Shown piece after piece: positions 10,537 through 18,442 of a stretch of DNA of 30,271 nt; position 1 is the first letter of the stretch, and each line of letters begins with the position of its first letter. Below the pieces are notes generated by a model that searched no databases, was not told where the DNA came from, and worked only from the letters and a program-made list of their open reading frames with translations. The DNA is taken from positions 1-30,271 of the IMG/VR virus record IMGVR_UViG_3300045922_000031; one strand, written 5' to 3'. Both the position numbers and the translations under genes were made by a program. The stretch comes from a virus.

Positions 10537-11434
10537 CTTGTATCTCCGACAAAATGAACATTTCATTAACCATCTTTGGATCATCGAACGTTTTCGGCGA
10601 CTTTACAATCCATCCCATTATCTCGAATTTACTTTTTATATCTAGGGTTTTCTTTACAACCTCATGATTATCCCAGTCTGTCCAAAGTAGTGCAGTTGGC
10701 TTACCATAAAAGCCAAATCCCTGCATCAACTTGTATATATCCTCAAATGAAAACGATAGTCCAAGCATGCCAACACATGCTATATTTATCTTTTTATATA
10801 ATCTGCTTGATAAAACTGTATCCATAATATAATTAGAAGCAAGTATGTCTTCCGTCAAAACAACTAGATCCAATTTGAAATCAGATTCACATGAAGCAAT
10901 TATGTGGTGCTTGAAGTCAATTCTATTGTCATACCATTCAGTGATGTATTTTGGACTGTGCGGTTTATACAGATATCTACGTTGTTCTCCTGTTATCGCT
11001 CCAATAAATACATTTTTAATTTGGTATACAATGGCGTTTTCAACGTTATCATATACCAAACCATATGATTTACTTAAACTAAATCCAAGCTTTGGGTATT
11101 TTTTATCTAAATATTGCATAGCACTATATGGCATATTTACAAGCGTTAAACGTTGTGCACGTTTGTAAGAGGCCGTAGCGCGTGTCGTTTCAGCCACATC
11201 TTGTATAGGCAATGCCAAACGAACCGGATCTATATTATAACGACCGTGTTCCTGACAATTGAAACAATTGTAGAGCAAGAAAGCATTTCCTGTTTCTTCA
11301 TCGACACGTCGCGTAATGTAAAATCTAGAACGTATGTCCGTGCATGCCGGACAATTGAATCTGATAGTGCTAGACTCTTCGAGTAGCCCTTTGTCAATAA
11401 CACTATCGAGTAGATTTTTGACTACGTAATCCAT
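10517..11434 (-). CDS. DNA primase (zinc ribbon plus TOPRIM)
   Basis: Encodes 305 residues. An N-terminal zinc ribbon has Cys28/Cys31 (NCPAC) and Cys57/Cys60 (NCFNC), the site that reads template sequence in T7 gp4-type primases. The later part carries TOPRIM features: Glu195 in VVLTEDILAS and Asp253-x-Asp255 in LLWTDWDNH. In T7 primase and helicase are one protein; here they are two genes overlapping by 20 nt. The ATG overlaps the preceding stop (TGATG at 11432-11436). It would lay down RNA primers for the family A polymerase. Confidence 0.88.
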   Translation of the reverse strand: MDYVVKNLLDSVIDKGLLEESSTIRFNCPACTDIRSRFYITRRVDEETGNAFLLYNCFNCQEHGRYNIDPVRLALPIQDVAETTRATASYKRAQRLTLVNMPYSAMQYLDKKYPKLGFSLSKSYGLVYDNVENAIVYQIKNVFIGAITGEQRRYLYKPHSPKYITEWYDNRIDFKHHIIASCESDFKLDLVVLTEDILASNYIMDTVLSSRLYKKINIACVGMLGLSFSFEDIYKLMQGFGFYGKPTALLWTDWDNHEVVKKTLDIKSKFEIMGWIVKSPKTFDDPKMVNEMFILSEIQDAVEPK

Positions 11435-13152
11435 CACTCACATACCTCAAGAATATCTTCTTGGAATGTTTTAAGTAAAACGTCGGATATATCCGACATA
11501 TTGTTGACAATCTTTGCGTTACTGCCGTAGTAACGAGTTACGGAAGTGTCCTCCATACCAATTCCGTAAATATCAATACCAGAGTTTCGTAAATCCTTTA
11601 CTACTGTGCGCAATTCTGCATCGGGATCATCGCCACCAGCAGATGGCTGTCCATCTGACATTACAAGAATGATTTTTCGTTTTTCCTTACGGCGGCTTAG
11701 TCTTTCGGCAGCAAACACAACATTATGTGCGTCCCCATTACAAGAAGAAAATTGGTCAAAATATGTGAATGCTTGTCCAATCTCTACTGGAGTTACTTGC
11801 TTATCAAATTCCTTGACTATAAGATGAAATGGCTTTCTGCTGTACTCAAATGCAGCGATTTCGACTGGTACATGAAGAATATCACTAAAGATTTTATTGC
11901 ATTGAGTTACCGCTTGTACGGCAAGCGGTTTTTTGTTGCCGCTGCACATTGAACCTGACCAATCTACTAGAATAGATACGGCCGTATTGAGTTTCTTTAC
12001 ATCATCCTTCTTCTTGAAAATACGAAAATTCCAGTCTGAATTAGGACGCAGCGGCATAGCTATCCTGTACAGGGCACGTGTATTAAGTCTACCTGTAATC
12101 TTTTCAGGTATGATATTTACACGTTGTTTAGATTGGATATATCGGCGAATTTGATTAGCTAAGCCAAGATTCGAGGTTTCATTATAGTTATATACATTCT
12201 GACTGCCTTTGGGAATCATTAATGTAGGTTTAATATAACTAAAGCCTCCGTAATTAAGAGGCTTCCCAGTCCAATCGACACCGCCGCCACCGCCGAGGAT
12301 ACCATTTTCTTCTTCGTGATTGCTCGTATTAAGAAAGCGCCACGGAATTTTACCGCGCTTCAAACTAGCCTTGTCTTTAAGCTCCCTATCAGAGCGAGCT
12401 AAATCTTGTGAAGCGCTGCAACCATTCGATTTGTTTTTAGCTTTCTTTTGACATTCTTTGATATCATTTTCCGCTTTATTTTCCTCATCATAGATGAGAT
12501 TATAAAGCTTCTTGGCAACTTCGGCTGAATCTGTCGTAGTAACGGCCGCGCCCCATTCATCCAAAATACCACTATTAATAACCCGATCTACAATCTTCTT
12601 AGATTCGGGTGTATGATATTTTTCTAATAGCGTACCTTGAACTACAGATTCAGGGTGCCACCGAGCGCGTTCCTTGATTGAGATATCATTTATCGCAAAA
12701 AACCTGGCATTATCAATATCATCAGGATTTATTTTGTCCTTATTATTTTCCAGATACTCGCCAAGTTCTTTGTGAATTAAATTCAGAGCCTCTGCCATGT
12801 CGCGACGATCTCCGTAATAGTTCGCCAAATGTAGGCGTTCCATTACGGAATCTTCAACTACATTAACTACCCGCAATAACGGATGATCGGGCGGCAGGTT
12901 CCAACCTTCTACGATATCAAAAAGATCCCTCCTTATAATATGCAAAGGTTCATGGATCAATGCTGCCCTGTATTTGATCCATTCATTTTTGTTCATAGGC
13001 ATCTTTGGAATTGGCATCATAATTTCGCCGTGTGCATTGGCACACGGTACGCACACTTCATCCGTGAAGCGGAGCGTAACGCCATTATCACCGGCCCTAC
13101 GTTGAGCCTGATCCTGTGCGGAAATGATGGTTAGAATTGATACAGTATCCAT
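11434..13152 (-). CDS. CobT-like vWA protein with N-terminal HExxH domain
   Basis: Encodes 572 residues from the ATG at 13150-13152, which forms TAATG with the AAA+ gene stop and has GGAG 10 nt upstream. The C-terminal von Willebrand A domain has an intact metal site: DWSGSM (Asp397, Ser399, Ser401), Asp474 in GDAHN and Asp500 in MSDGQP. The N-terminal region has HEPLH (His67-Glu68, His71) and then NVVEDSVME (residues 97-105), a zincin-like pattern seen in CobT/DUF2201-type vWA partners. The middle is charged and low complexity. Such proteins work with MoxR/CobS AAA+ ATPases in metal insertion or protein remodelling; here the partner is directly upstream. The actual target is unknown. Confidence 0.82.
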   Translation of the reverse strand: MDTVSILTIISAQDQAQRRAGDNGVTLRFTDEVCVPCANAHGEIMMPIPKMPMNKNEWIKYRAALIHEPLHIIRRDLFDIVEGWNLPPDHPLLRVVNVVEDSVMERLHLANYYGDRRDMAEALNLIHKELGEYLENNKDKINPDDIDNARFFAINDISIKERARWHPESVVQGTLLEKYHTPESKKIVDRVINSGILDEWGAAVTTTDSAEVAKKLYNLIYDEENKAENDIKECQKKAKNKSNGCSASQDLARSDRELKDKASLKRGKIPWRFLNTSNHEEENGILGGGGGVDWTGKPLNYGGFSYIKPTLMIPKGSQNVYNYNETSNLGLANQIRRYIQSKQRVNIIPEKITGRLNTRALYRIAMPLRPNSDWNFRIFKKKDDVKKLNTAVSILVDWSGSMCSGNKKPLAVQAVTQCNKIFSDILHVPVEIAAFEYSRKPFHLIVKEFDKQVTPVEIGQAFTYFDQFSSCNGDAHNVVFAAERLSRRKEKRKIILVMSDGQPSAGGDDPDAELRTVVKDLRNSGIDIYGIGMEDTSVTRYYGSNAKIVNNMSDISDVLLKTFQEDILEVCE

Positions 13153-14171
13153 TACGGGTATGCTCCAAAAACCTGACGATAACAATCCATAGCGACTTGC
13201 TTACATGTATCACTCAATTTGTCCAGATAAGCAAGCCGATAAGCGGGACCGACATGCTCAAGCAGAGTATAATTTCGGTACCAATTGACAAGCCCACGAA
13301 TGCTTATCGTTTGCAGAACTTTATTCTGCATGAATGCCGGACGAATAAGACCCGCAACCTTAATCATTTGTTGTGCGGTCGTTTCGTCGAACTTGTCTTT
13401 GAATGTAACTCTTAGAACGCTAAGTTCTTCGACTTCCGACATGTAATCGACGAAGATACTAGTGGTAATACGATCCAAACTCGACACGTCTTGTACTTGG
13501 GCAATATACTTGCCCGTTGTGTCTCCAGTCCCTGTCGTATTATCGGTTAGGAAAATCCAAAGATCCTTTGCAGGTTCCAATGCCCGCTGAATCCCATGGG
13601 CATCCTGTAGTACTAGAGTCGGCGGAGACTCAAGTACAGACTGAATAGCCATAAGATTAGGTGCACGAAATGCTTCGTCAATGGTAAGGATACCGCCGTG
13701 CATGAAGGCCAGTACGACATCAGACGGTGCAGTTTTGGTGACAGGTACACCATTTTCAGCCACTACTGAAACAGAACCAAGGAACTCAGACGCTTCCATC
13801 TGAGCATGGCAAGATACACGCCAGAATGGCATGTTAAGGCGAGCAGCTAACTCCCTGATATTGCTCGTTTTTCCGGTACCTGTCGGACCGTGAAGCAGAC
13901 AAGTACGGCCTGCTTTCATGGCAAAAAGCAATTTGTCCAGAAGTTCCGGACTGAAGTAATGATCCGTCTTTTTCGGAATTCTTGGTTGAGCGGCAGCGTC
14001 CCAATACTCAGTTGGATACGGGTCGCGGCTCCAACGCTCATCAATCGGAGCATCAAAGATTTTATTGACCTCTTTCGAGGCCAATAGAGACGCATCCGCA
14101 GTATTTTCTTTGGCTCCTTTACGCTCCATGTGTTCACGGATGCGCCGCATTAATTCTTGGTCCTTGGTCAT
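13152..14171 (-). CDS. CobS/MoxR-like AAA+ ATPase
   Basis: Encodes 339 residues with GGAG before its ATG. Visible features are Walker A GPTGTGKT (95-102), Walker B ILTIDEA (161-167), a sensor-1 stretch TDNTTGTGD, and SLDRITTSIFVDY, the CobS-type arrangement. CobS works with CobT and CobN to insert cobalt during aerobic B12 synthesis; MoxR relatives act as chaperones together with vWA proteins. The coupled gene downstream encodes the vWA partner. No CobN-like large subunit occurs in the window, so a cobaltochelatase role is possible but unproven. CobS-like genes are known from other phages. Confidence 0.88.
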   Translation of the reverse strand: MTKDQELMRRIREHMERKGAKENTADASLLASKEVNKIFDAPIDERWSRDPYPTEYWDAAAQPRIPKKTDHYFSPELLDKLLFAMKAGRTCLLHGPTGTGKTSNIRELAARLNMPFWRVSCHAQMEASEFLGSVSVVAENGVPVTKTAPSDVVLAFMHGGILTIDEAFRAPNLMAIQSVLESPPTLVLQDAHGIQRALEPAKDLWIFLTDNTTGTGDTTGKYIAQVQDVSSLDRITTSIFVDYMSEVEELSVLRVTFKDKFDETTAQQMIKVAGLIRPAFMQNKVLQTISIRGLVNWYRNYTLLEHVGPAYRLAYLDKLSDTCKQVAMDCYRQVFGAYP

Positions 14172-16775: not shown

Positions 16776-16813
16776 GGCCGCTGCCGTACATGCAATCCGC
16801 GTGCCAACGTCGC

Positions 16814-16966
16814 AGAATCAAGGACTTACGGCGAAAACTTCGCGGTCCGTCTTAGGTTAGATCGCGGTATTTGTAAATGATTCCGACGTTTTCACGGAGA
16901 ATCAAGGACTTAGCGCCGACACCGTGCGCCCAGAAGTCGAAAAACTGTAGCAGAATCAACAATTTA
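16814..16966. repeat. Three direct repeats AGAATCAAGGACTTA
   Basis: Exact copies occur at 16814-16828 and 16898-16912, and a degenerate copy AGAATCAACAATTTA at 16952-16966 (11 of 15 identical). The centres are 84 and 54 nt apart. Flanks share CG-rich bits such as ACGTC or ACGTT. They lie upstream of the first leftward gene and may be binding sites for a regulator or initiator, or leftovers of a duplicated sequence. Confidence 0.6.
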
Positions 16967-17125: not shown

Positions 17126-17154
17126 GGTATAAGGGGGTGACGGGGGTATTTCAA
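17126..17154 (-). promoter_or_regulatory. Possible leftward (early) promoter
   Basis: On the minus strand TTGAAA (17149-17154) and TATACC (17126-17131) are separated by 17 nt. The -35 has one mismatch and the -10 two mismatches to the sigma70 consensus. It points at the left-arm genes about 400 nt away and is the best candidate I find, but it is weak. Confidence 0.35.
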
Positions 17155-17309
17155 GAGGGAGAATGCACCTAAAAATTTTCTCATAGAAATTCCCAAACCA
17201 TATTTACTAAAATATTTTTATACATTCCTAAACTCGGGAACTTTTTGAATCCAATTGGGTCCAATCATCGAACATTACGAAAATTTAATGTTAAAAACGT
17301 GGAACCCTA

Positions 17310-17338
17310 TTGACTTGTGGATGTCTAAGTGCTATAAT
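17310..17338 (+). promoter_or_regulatory. Sigma70 promoter P1 (rightward)
   Basis: TTGACT (17310-17315), a 17-nt spacer and a perfect TATAAT (17333-17338). The spacer ends GTCTAAGTG, also present in P2. It should start transcription near 17345 towards the late genes. Confidence 0.88.
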
Positions 17339-17421
17339 AGAGGGAAATATAAAAGGTTATATTTTATAAATACTTGATCCATAAGGACTCTATAAATTTT
17401 ATATTTAGTTGGGGAACTATC

Positions 17422-17450
17422 TTGACTTTGGCTTGTCTAAGTGATATAAT
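17422..17450 (+). promoter_or_regulatory. Sigma70 promoter P2 (rightward)
   Basis: TTGACT (17422-17427), a 17-nt spacer and TATAAT (17445-17450), lying 112 nt after P1. It shares GGAAC ahead of the -35 and GTCTAAGTG before the -10 with P1, so the two are duplicated copies. Transcription from about 17457 would give a 450-nt leader before the first late gene. Confidence 0.88.
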
Positions 17451-17533
17451 GAGCCAATTGATGTTTTAGATGAATCCAATTTGAAGGAGTTGACGAATAC
17501 ACACTAATTCCGGGCTCTGTCCTTTCGCGCTTG

Positions 17534-17703
17534 GCGACTAACAGTTTGTGACACCCCGGCAGGTTGATACCTACGCCTAGCTAGTAACTAGGGACTTAGA
17601 TAGATATCTAAGGTGTATCAAGCTGATATACTAAGACTTCTTAGTTAGATTATTAGATAGATATAGTATATATATCAACCTGATAATCAAACTGGGAAGT
17701 CGC
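17534..17703 (+). ncRNA. Candidate structured RNA in the late leader
   Basis: The ends pair in three successive perfect stems in register: GCGACT (17534-17539) with AGTCGC (17698-17703); CAGTTTG (17542-17548) with CAAACTG (17688-17694); CAGGTTGATA (17560-17569) with TATCAACCTG (17673-17682). Enclosed are four local hairpins: CCTAG/CTAGG (17576-17592), CTTAGAT/ATCTAAG (17595-17612), TATCA/TGATA (17616-17628) and ACTAAG/CTTAGT (17630-17645). The 23 paired closing bases and the multi-hairpin core argue for a selected RNA or DNA structure. It starts about 80 nt after the predicted P2 start, so it is transcribed. No known RNA family is recognised; a DNA cruciform at an origin is the alternative. 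Confidence 0.6.
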
Positions 17704-17728
17704 AGTATACCTAAAATAATTAGATTAG

Positions 17729-17760
17729 TTATTTTAATAATAAATTTAATATTAAAATAA
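17729..17760. repeat. AT-only inverted repeat
   Basis: TTATTTTAATA (17729-17739) and TATTAAAATAA (17750-17760) are perfect 11-bp complements around a 10-nt A/T loop. The whole stretch from about 17710 to 17770 is almost entirely A/T, a plausible DNA-unwinding element. Confidence 0.6.
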
Positions 17761-17778
17761 TAAGTATTAAGCAGCCTT

Positions 17779-17819
17779 GTCTACTATCCAGTAACATTCC
17801 GTTATGATCGGATATAGAC
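17779..17819 (+). other. Leader stem-loop
   Basis: GTCTACTATCC (17779-17789) pairs with GGATATAGAC (17810-17819) with one bulged C, and TAAC/GTTA inside can extend it. GACTC (17817-17821) can also pair with GAGTC (17831-17835), which would compete with both this stem and the next one, a possible switch. Confidence 0.5.
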
Positions 17820-17828
17820 TCTAGGCTA

Positions 17829-17886
17829 GGGAGTCCCCGGCAAACAAAGCCAAGCGCGAAATCAACCTACCTGGCCGGGGGCTCCC
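17829..17886 (+). other. Strong GC-rich stem-loop ahead of the first late gene
   Basis: GGGAGTCCCCGGC (17829-17841) pairs with GCCGGGGGCTCCC (17874-17886) over 13 bp with one G-T pair, around a 32-nt loop. No T run follows, so it is not a typical terminator. It ends 10 nt before the AAAAGGAG ribosome binding site and could protect the mRNA 5' side or control translation. Confidence 0.65.
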
Positions 17887-17908
17887 GATCTTCTTAAAAG
17901 GAGTTTAT

Positions 17909-18442
17909 ATGTCTAGATTTGGTTTGACAGATGAAGAATTCCGTAAAGCCCTTCGGGATACGAAGGGAGCGTACCGTACCAAATCCCTATTCAGGGAACT
18001 CTCGGAGTCCAAGGACAAATATCCGTACTTCTTCAACTTGGGGGATGACGACGACGCCGAAACGATCTCGATGCGTAAGCACTATCTAGAAATAAACGAT
18101 CCCACGGAATACCGAACCGCCTACGCCCTCCTCGGATCCTGGGAACACTGGAAGGTACTTACGAATTCTCCAATGTTCGTAAAGTACTTTGAAAATCTTC
18201 GTATGGAACTAAAACAAAAGATTGCATCCGAAGCGTTTGCCTCCATCTACAAGGAGTCCATGTCGGGTAGCCAGCGGGCCTTAGAAGCTTCCAAATTCGT
18301 TATAGGCTACGTTCAAGGACCTAGCGCTACCCGACGTGGACGTCCCTCGAAGGACGAGCGTAAAGCCTATCTAAAGGCTCTGGCCGAAGAAGATCGGGAC
18401 ATTCTCGATGACTTGGAAAGGGTAAAGAACGTAAATGCCTAA
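17909..18442 (+). CDS. Terminase small subunit (putative)
   Basis: Encodes 177 residues with a strong AAAAGGAG site. The pattern YPYFFNLGDDDD, YLEINDPTEYRTAYALLGSWEHW, and a helical segment (MELKQKIASEAFASIYKE) followed by a basic RRGRPSKDER stretch resembles small terminase subunits of podoviruses, which recognise genome ends and recruit the large subunit. It is the first gene of the rightward arm. The large subunit lies about 4.5 kb further on rather than next door. The stop overlaps the start of tailspike 1 by 8 nt. No enzymatic motif exists to check, so the call rests on sequence pattern and position. Confidence 0.65.
   Translation: MSRFGLTDEEFRKALRDTKGAYRTKSLFRELSESKDKYPYFFNLGDDDDAETISMRKHYLEINDPTEYRTAYALLGSWEHWKVLTNSPMFVKYFENLRMELKQKIASEAFASIYKESMSGSQRALEASKFVIGYVQGPSATRRGRPSKDERKAYLKALAEEDRDILDDLERVKNVNA

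Follow-up and report, generated by a model that had tools for sequence, protein, structure and literature searches.

What a long non-coding stretch beside the genome terminus of a podovirus does for the packaging and virion genes that follow it is the question raised by the IMG/VR fragment IMGVR_UViG_3300045922_000031, whose 30,271 bases, from an uncultivated virus, make up the window analysed here. A sequence-only reading had placed a large multi-stem RNA or cruciform at 17534-17703, in the leader of the late transcript, and had assigned it a closing stem of three complementary blocks around four small hairpins.

The window TerL is about 60% identical to those of Zobellviridae/Cobavirinae phages, and the virus is a Zobellviridae-like podovirus. 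Its other genes encode a head-tail adaptor, a major head protein, ribonucleotide reductase, DNA polymerase, helicase, primase, and endonuclease I as well as CobT- and AAA-like proteins, and they are laid out in two arms, the left on the minus strand and the right on the plus strand. The CobT-like (VWA) gene adjoins the AAA ATPase gene at 11434-14171, and this pair may belong to a MoxR-VWA type ATPase system rather than to cobalamin biosynthesis. Along the right arm, the order is a terminus motif, two sigma-70-like promoters, the leader, and a putative small terminase gene (terS; 17909-18442, plus strand; phrog_8035, 177 aa), whose homologues immediately precede terL in many relatives. The earlier placement of the structured region directly upstream of the small terminase gene is thus borne out by position, with the gene itself called putatively, on gene position only; a PDB sequence and fold search did not confirm the identity, the match to the NV1 small terminase (E 4.8) being non-significant. 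The Shine-Dalgarno sequence of this gene, AAGGAG, can be read directly at 17898-17903 on the plus strand.

The conserved genome-terminus motif (17126-17199, plus strand) combines a G-rich block with a following stretch of the CACCTAAAAATTTTCTCATAGAAATT type, occurs at many Zobellviridae-like loci, and was described by a profile from seven phages, the window included. It was found in 19 records at E < 0.005, the window and the seed sequences counted, and weakly in about ten more, always oriented toward the terminase side and with all matches on the plus strand. In ICBM2, it coincides with the inner boundary of the direct terminal repeat (DTR) as annotated, and cobaviruses have terminal repeats of 159-173 bp with a conserved GC-rich end (Bischoff et al., PMC6775973); on these two grounds the leader is taken to start just inside the genome end, and the motif probably marks where terminase cuts, at the border of the repeat. 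Upstream of the motif, an 18-nt repeat of the CGCAGAATCAAGGACTTA type occurs three times at 16811-16966.

Two promoter-like sites follow on the plus strand at 17310-17338 and 17422-17450, each composed of TTGACT, a 17-nt spacer, and TATAAT with an extended -10 TG. Both are near-consensus sigma-70-type sites in a consensus scan (11 of 12 matches each), in agreement with the two strong upstream promoters of the sequence-only reading, and transcription from the second would start near 17458. They lie inside near-duplicate 38-nt segments (17301-17338 and 17413-17450; 79% identical, spacing 112), and TGTCTAAGTG is common to both between the -35 and -10 elements.

About 370 untranslated bases precede the packaging and virion genes, and they fold much more stably than chance would predict. 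No plus-strand ORF of at least 20 aa is present between 17470 and 17908, which leaves no room for a protein, as had been claimed, and the 170-nt region of the original description folds at -59.6 kcal/mol (z -6.5), with none of 200 shuffles as good. Among 754 windows scanned over the whole record on both strands, the best was 17601-17760 on the plus strand (z about -9.6), so that no part of the record stands out more in its folding than the leader, into which both promoters aim. The minus strand of the same 160-base stretch ranks second in the scan (z -7.6), 17501-17892 folds nearly equally on the two strands (-134.7 versus -132.8), and the plus strand of the leader shows no excess of G-U pairs. 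Since both strands fold alike and G-U pairs show no enrichment, the fold carries no signature that would favour RNA over DNA.

A function at the DNA level therefore has to be weighed, in which palindromes and AT-rich DNA beside the terminal repeat would serve replication initiation or packaging as a cruciform, an origin, or a terminase site. Besides the similar folding of the two strands, such a function would suit the location about 330 bp from the conserved terminus motif and an AT-rich palindrome detected by repeat search at 17729-17760 (plus strand; 16-nt arms, 94% complementary), which resembles an unwinding element. Inverted repeats were also once proposed near the ends of SIO1, but Bischoff et al. 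judged those ends misplaced (PMC6775973). The terminus motif is conserved family-wide, however, while the structure is absent from relatives, and members of one family should have a packaging or origin site in common. We consider the DNA-level explanation unlikely; the promoters, the place before a ribosome-binding site, and the lack of family-wide conservation make a transcribed leader the more likely reading.

The three in-register blocks of the sequence-only reading, running through 17534-17569 on the 5′ side (6, 7, and 10 nt) and 17673-17703 on the 3′ side (plus strand), are all exact and comprise 23 pairs: GCGACT (17534-17539) with AGTCGC (17698-17703), CAGTTTG (17542-17548) with CAAACTG (17688-17694), and CAGGTTGATA (17560-17569) with TATCAACCTG (17673-17682). 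Such ordered pairing is, as had been argued, improbable by chance, since a nested 23-bp chain arose in none of 300 dinucleotide shuffles (mean 8.3, maximum 18). As a working structure, the three-block closing stem is nevertheless disfavoured by ensemble, constrained-fold, and growing-transcript calculations. Enforcing the blocks costs 8 kcal/mol (-51.5 versus -59.6 kcal/mol for the free fold), their pairs have ensemble probabilities of about 1e-8 to 1e-10 in the 17458-17908 transcript, and the stem is absent from all minimum-energy folds of growing transcripts. The enforced fold, by our count, has fewer independent hairpins inside it than the four proposed, and the structure extends well beyond 17534-17703, to about 17511-17887.

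Instead of the three-block stem, the minimum-energy fold of this region consists of two adjacent hairpins on the plus strand. Hairpin A (17542-17625) is branched, with an outer stem CAGTTTG/CAAGCTG (pair probability 0.95), and hairpin B (17627-17709) is a predicted long, near-continuous stem of 6+12+9+6 = 33 bp whose interruptions are small and symmetric and whose GACTTC/GAAGTC pairs reach a probability of 0.9996; the stretch 17626-17712 has a z of about -8, and the 3′ blocks of the earlier model lie inside the 3′ half of hairpin B. A 33-nt segment is common to the two hairpins at 79% identity, with an alignment score above all 1000 shuffles. Because A and B are partly duplicated, the 3′ half of B offers the 5′ half of A a second partner, in register and at long range, and the three-block stem looks like cross-pairing of this kind.

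The same duplication, together with that of the 38-nt promoter segments (likewise 79%), would also suit a neutral or weakly selected origin, in which the leader evolves fast and its hairpins arose as short segments were duplicated locally and repeats grew; the leaders of relatives are unrelated and repeat-rich, as illustrated by the AT microsatellites in MW202697. What duplication leaves unexplained is a perfect, GC-containing 13-bp closing repeat (0.1% of shuffles) and the placement of a GC hairpin just before the Shine-Dalgarno sequence, and on balance this explanation appears unlikely.

That closing repeat pairs TTTCGCGCTTGGC (17523-17535) with GCCAAGCGCGAAA (17849-17861), both on the plus strand. 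A long-range closing stem thus does exist, but it differs from the one first proposed and had been missed. The isolated duplex has an energy of -23.1 kcal/mol, and a perfect 13-bp repeat occurs in 0.45% of shuffles, or in 0.1% when at least 7 G or C are demanded. No target-site duplication flanks 17523/17861 and no other copy was found in the window or in phage records, and a MITE-like element was accordingly rejected. The 3′ arm falls within the 32-nt loop of a GC-rich 13-bp hairpin (17829-17886, plus strand; arms 17829-17841 and 17874-17886; probability 0.85; -28.3 kcal/mol), and a model that allows only nested pairs forces a choice between the closing stem (0.14) and this hairpin (0.85). 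Since the two have no base in common and would be joined by linkers of 7 and 12 nt, they can coexist as an H-type pseudoknot, which is possible on geometry rather than on a computed pseudoknot energy. Between hairpin B and the GC hairpin lies hairpin D (17773-17827, plus strand), which folds at -18.7 kcal/mol on its own stretch. In the growing-transcript series, A forms first, followed by B, the closing stem, and the 3′ hairpin in turn, and the terS Shine-Dalgarno sequence falls outside the GC hairpin.

A strong GC hairpin just before terS invites a further explanation, namely that the leader is an attenuator or antitermination leader, in which the hairpin and the GAUCUUCUU that follows it would form a conditional terminator of the late operon, and upstream segments (17554-17568 or the closing stem) would compete with it or modify RNA polymerase. 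A mutually exclusive partner for the 3′ arm of the hairpin is indeed available: CCCCGGC-AGGTTGAT at 17554-17568, that is, CCCCGGCAGGTTGAT, can pair with 17861-17868 and 17874-17880 (15 bp, 5-nt bulge; isolated duplex -24.0 versus -28.3 for the hairpin), and a direct repeat of CCCCGGCA at 17554 and 17835 permits the competition. At equilibrium, however, this alternative pairing has a probability of only about 1e-6. An intrinsic terminator would further combine a GC stem with a short loop and a U-run, whereas the loop here measures 32 nt, the tail GATCTTCTT has a weak U-run, and no terminator was called anywhere in 17290-17910. The hairpin is a weak attenuator candidate, and we regard the attenuator reading as unlikely.

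The distribution of the leader among relatives bears on all of these explanations. The TerL search gave 80 relatives (best identity 70%), the portal search seven (48-56%), and the bacterial genome search two distant loci, which were examined for the terminus motif and TerS only. A query with TerS alone returned no relatives. No alignable leader was found among the TerL and portal relatives. In the nearest TerL relative (L012, 70%), the leader is missing because the contig ends there, and a resemblance between L012 and the leader was rejected, its score (17.5) being under that of the best shuffle (21.5). Distant blastn searches of about 50,700 phage records for leader homologues returned chance matches or none. 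Exact-pattern matches in IMG/VR, seven to CCCCGGCAGGTTGATA and over 119 to GCCAAGCGCGAAATC, likewise look like chance, with no further similarity to the leader, and the match in MW202697 (L003) is an AT simple repeat.

The order of terminus, leader, and first right-arm gene is kept in 20 relatives. When the stretch from the terminus motif to the first right-arm gene was compared between these 20 records and the window, the leaders of the relatives measured 155-497 nt, with whole-leader z values from 0.1 to -5.8, some of them folding better than shuffles; none aligned with the window or contained a clear long-range stem like that of the window. At 709 nt from the motif, the window leader exceeds all the others in length, and with a whole-leader z of -7.0 it ranks first of the 21 in structure. 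As the relatives manage with shorter, unrelated leaders, the structure is inessential to the phage group. In several relatives (L037, L040, L042, L051, and L064), the leader contains a promoter-like TATGTTATAAT inside an inverted repeat (CCCGGT...ACCGGGG), which resembles an operator overlying the right-arm promoter. Inspection by eye also revealed tRNA-like sequences upstream of terS in L065 (700-1040) and L014 (230-306).

The claim that the structure is unlike known RNA families agrees with the lack of any Rfam match for the leader: with Rfam 15 at the gathering threshold, the whole window yielded only a tRNA elsewhere, and a permissive scan of 17290-17920 returned matches far below threshold only. 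One might picture a trans-acting or large structured non-coding RNA, stable, processed, about 370 nt long, closed by the pseudoknot, and with its own function in infection, and the compact multi-arm form closed by a 13-bp long-range stem, the dedicated promoters, and the absence of an ORF would all fit. Against it stand the absence of a homologue in the roughly 50,700 phage records and of any Rfam match, IMG/VR pattern matches at chance level only, and the lack of a separate terminator before terS, and we find this possibility improbable. Only a slim chance is likewise given to a new family of pseudoknot-closed phage RNAs of about 370 nt with their own promoters at the terminus, acting in trans or as a switch for late genes or packaging.

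Most likely, the leader is a lineage-specific, cis-acting part of the late transcript. The earlier reading is upheld as far as the structured non-coding character, the promoters, and the position are concerned, and it is not supported for the three-block closing stem. How such a leader may act can be proposed as follows. Transcription would begin at one or both of the sigma-70-type promoters just inside the genome terminus and cross about 450 nt of untranslated RNA into terS and the right arm, which carries the packaging and virion genes. The two hairpins, A and the 33-bp B, would fold during transcription, the 13-bp closing stem and the GC hairpin would form later at the 3′ end, possibly jointly as a pseudoknot, and the terS ribosome-binding site would stay outside the GC hairpin. 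An enzyme of the RNase III type could then act on the double-stranded hairpin B, and the new 5′ end of the late mRNA could be shielded by the terminal GC hairpin or by the pseudoknot. A structured 5′ leader that acts in cis, is processed at hairpin B, and lets the GC hairpin or the pseudoknot shield the mRNA is the account we tentatively prefer, at somewhat less than even probability. The RNase III processing or mRNA protection within it is a mechanistic guess modelled on the leaders of T7-type phages.

In T7-type phages, leaders are processed by RNase III at R sites. The present phage is likewise a podovirus, has direct terminal repeats, and carries a long double-stranded hairpin ahead of structural genes; with 6+12+9+6 bp, hairpin B has the length asked of an RNase III-processed late leader, a duplex of some 20 bp or more with few or no interruptions. 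T7 R sites, however, are shorter and lie between genes, whereas here a 33-bp hairpin with putative cleavage lies in a 450-nt leader behind host-type promoters. The late leader of lambda, the pR' 6S RNA with tR', has at its end an evident intrinsic terminator under the control of Q. Lying between a late promoter and the late genes, this leader likewise goes untranslated, but the window hairpin has no good U-run, and no Q-like gene was seen among the proteins scanned. The put RNA of HK022, about 70 nt with two stem-loops, is also a structured RNA directly downstream of a phage promoter, a likeness drawn by description only.

Among large RNAs, GOLLD and ROOL are frequent in phages. GOLLD, ROOL, and OLE, known as large ornate RNAs (PMC12286853), are similarly large and multi-stemmed, but the window leader matches no Rfam model, occurs once, and lies upstream of terS without a terminator of its own. 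The cobaviruses ICBM1/2 and SIO1 (PMC6775973) have in common with the window the two-arm genome, the DTR with a conserved GC-rich end, and the non-coding stretch before the first right-arm gene; the leaders of ICBM2, CRP-4, and the others compared have no sequence or long-range stem in common with that of the window. A retron msr-msd RNA, considered for the terminal inverted repeats and the long hairpin, was rejected in that no reverse transcriptase occurs among the larger ORFs scanned. Structured phage leaders are already known, and the window leader belongs to no known family. Literature searches on structured late leaders, put RNA, and RNase III-processed late leaders found no matching work, and no study was found on the control or protection of the packaging and virion transcript in Zobellviridae.

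For the reading of structure by eye, the locus advises caution, since partial duplication between hairpins can by itself generate a conspicuous long-range pairing. Positions 17126-17909 form a compact region, with the leader beside a conserved terminus motif, in which packaging, transcription start, and late control could be examined jointly. If the leader is transcribed, it marks how a T7-like phage, seemingly reliant on host-type promoters, governs or safeguards the entire transcript of its packaging and virion genes.
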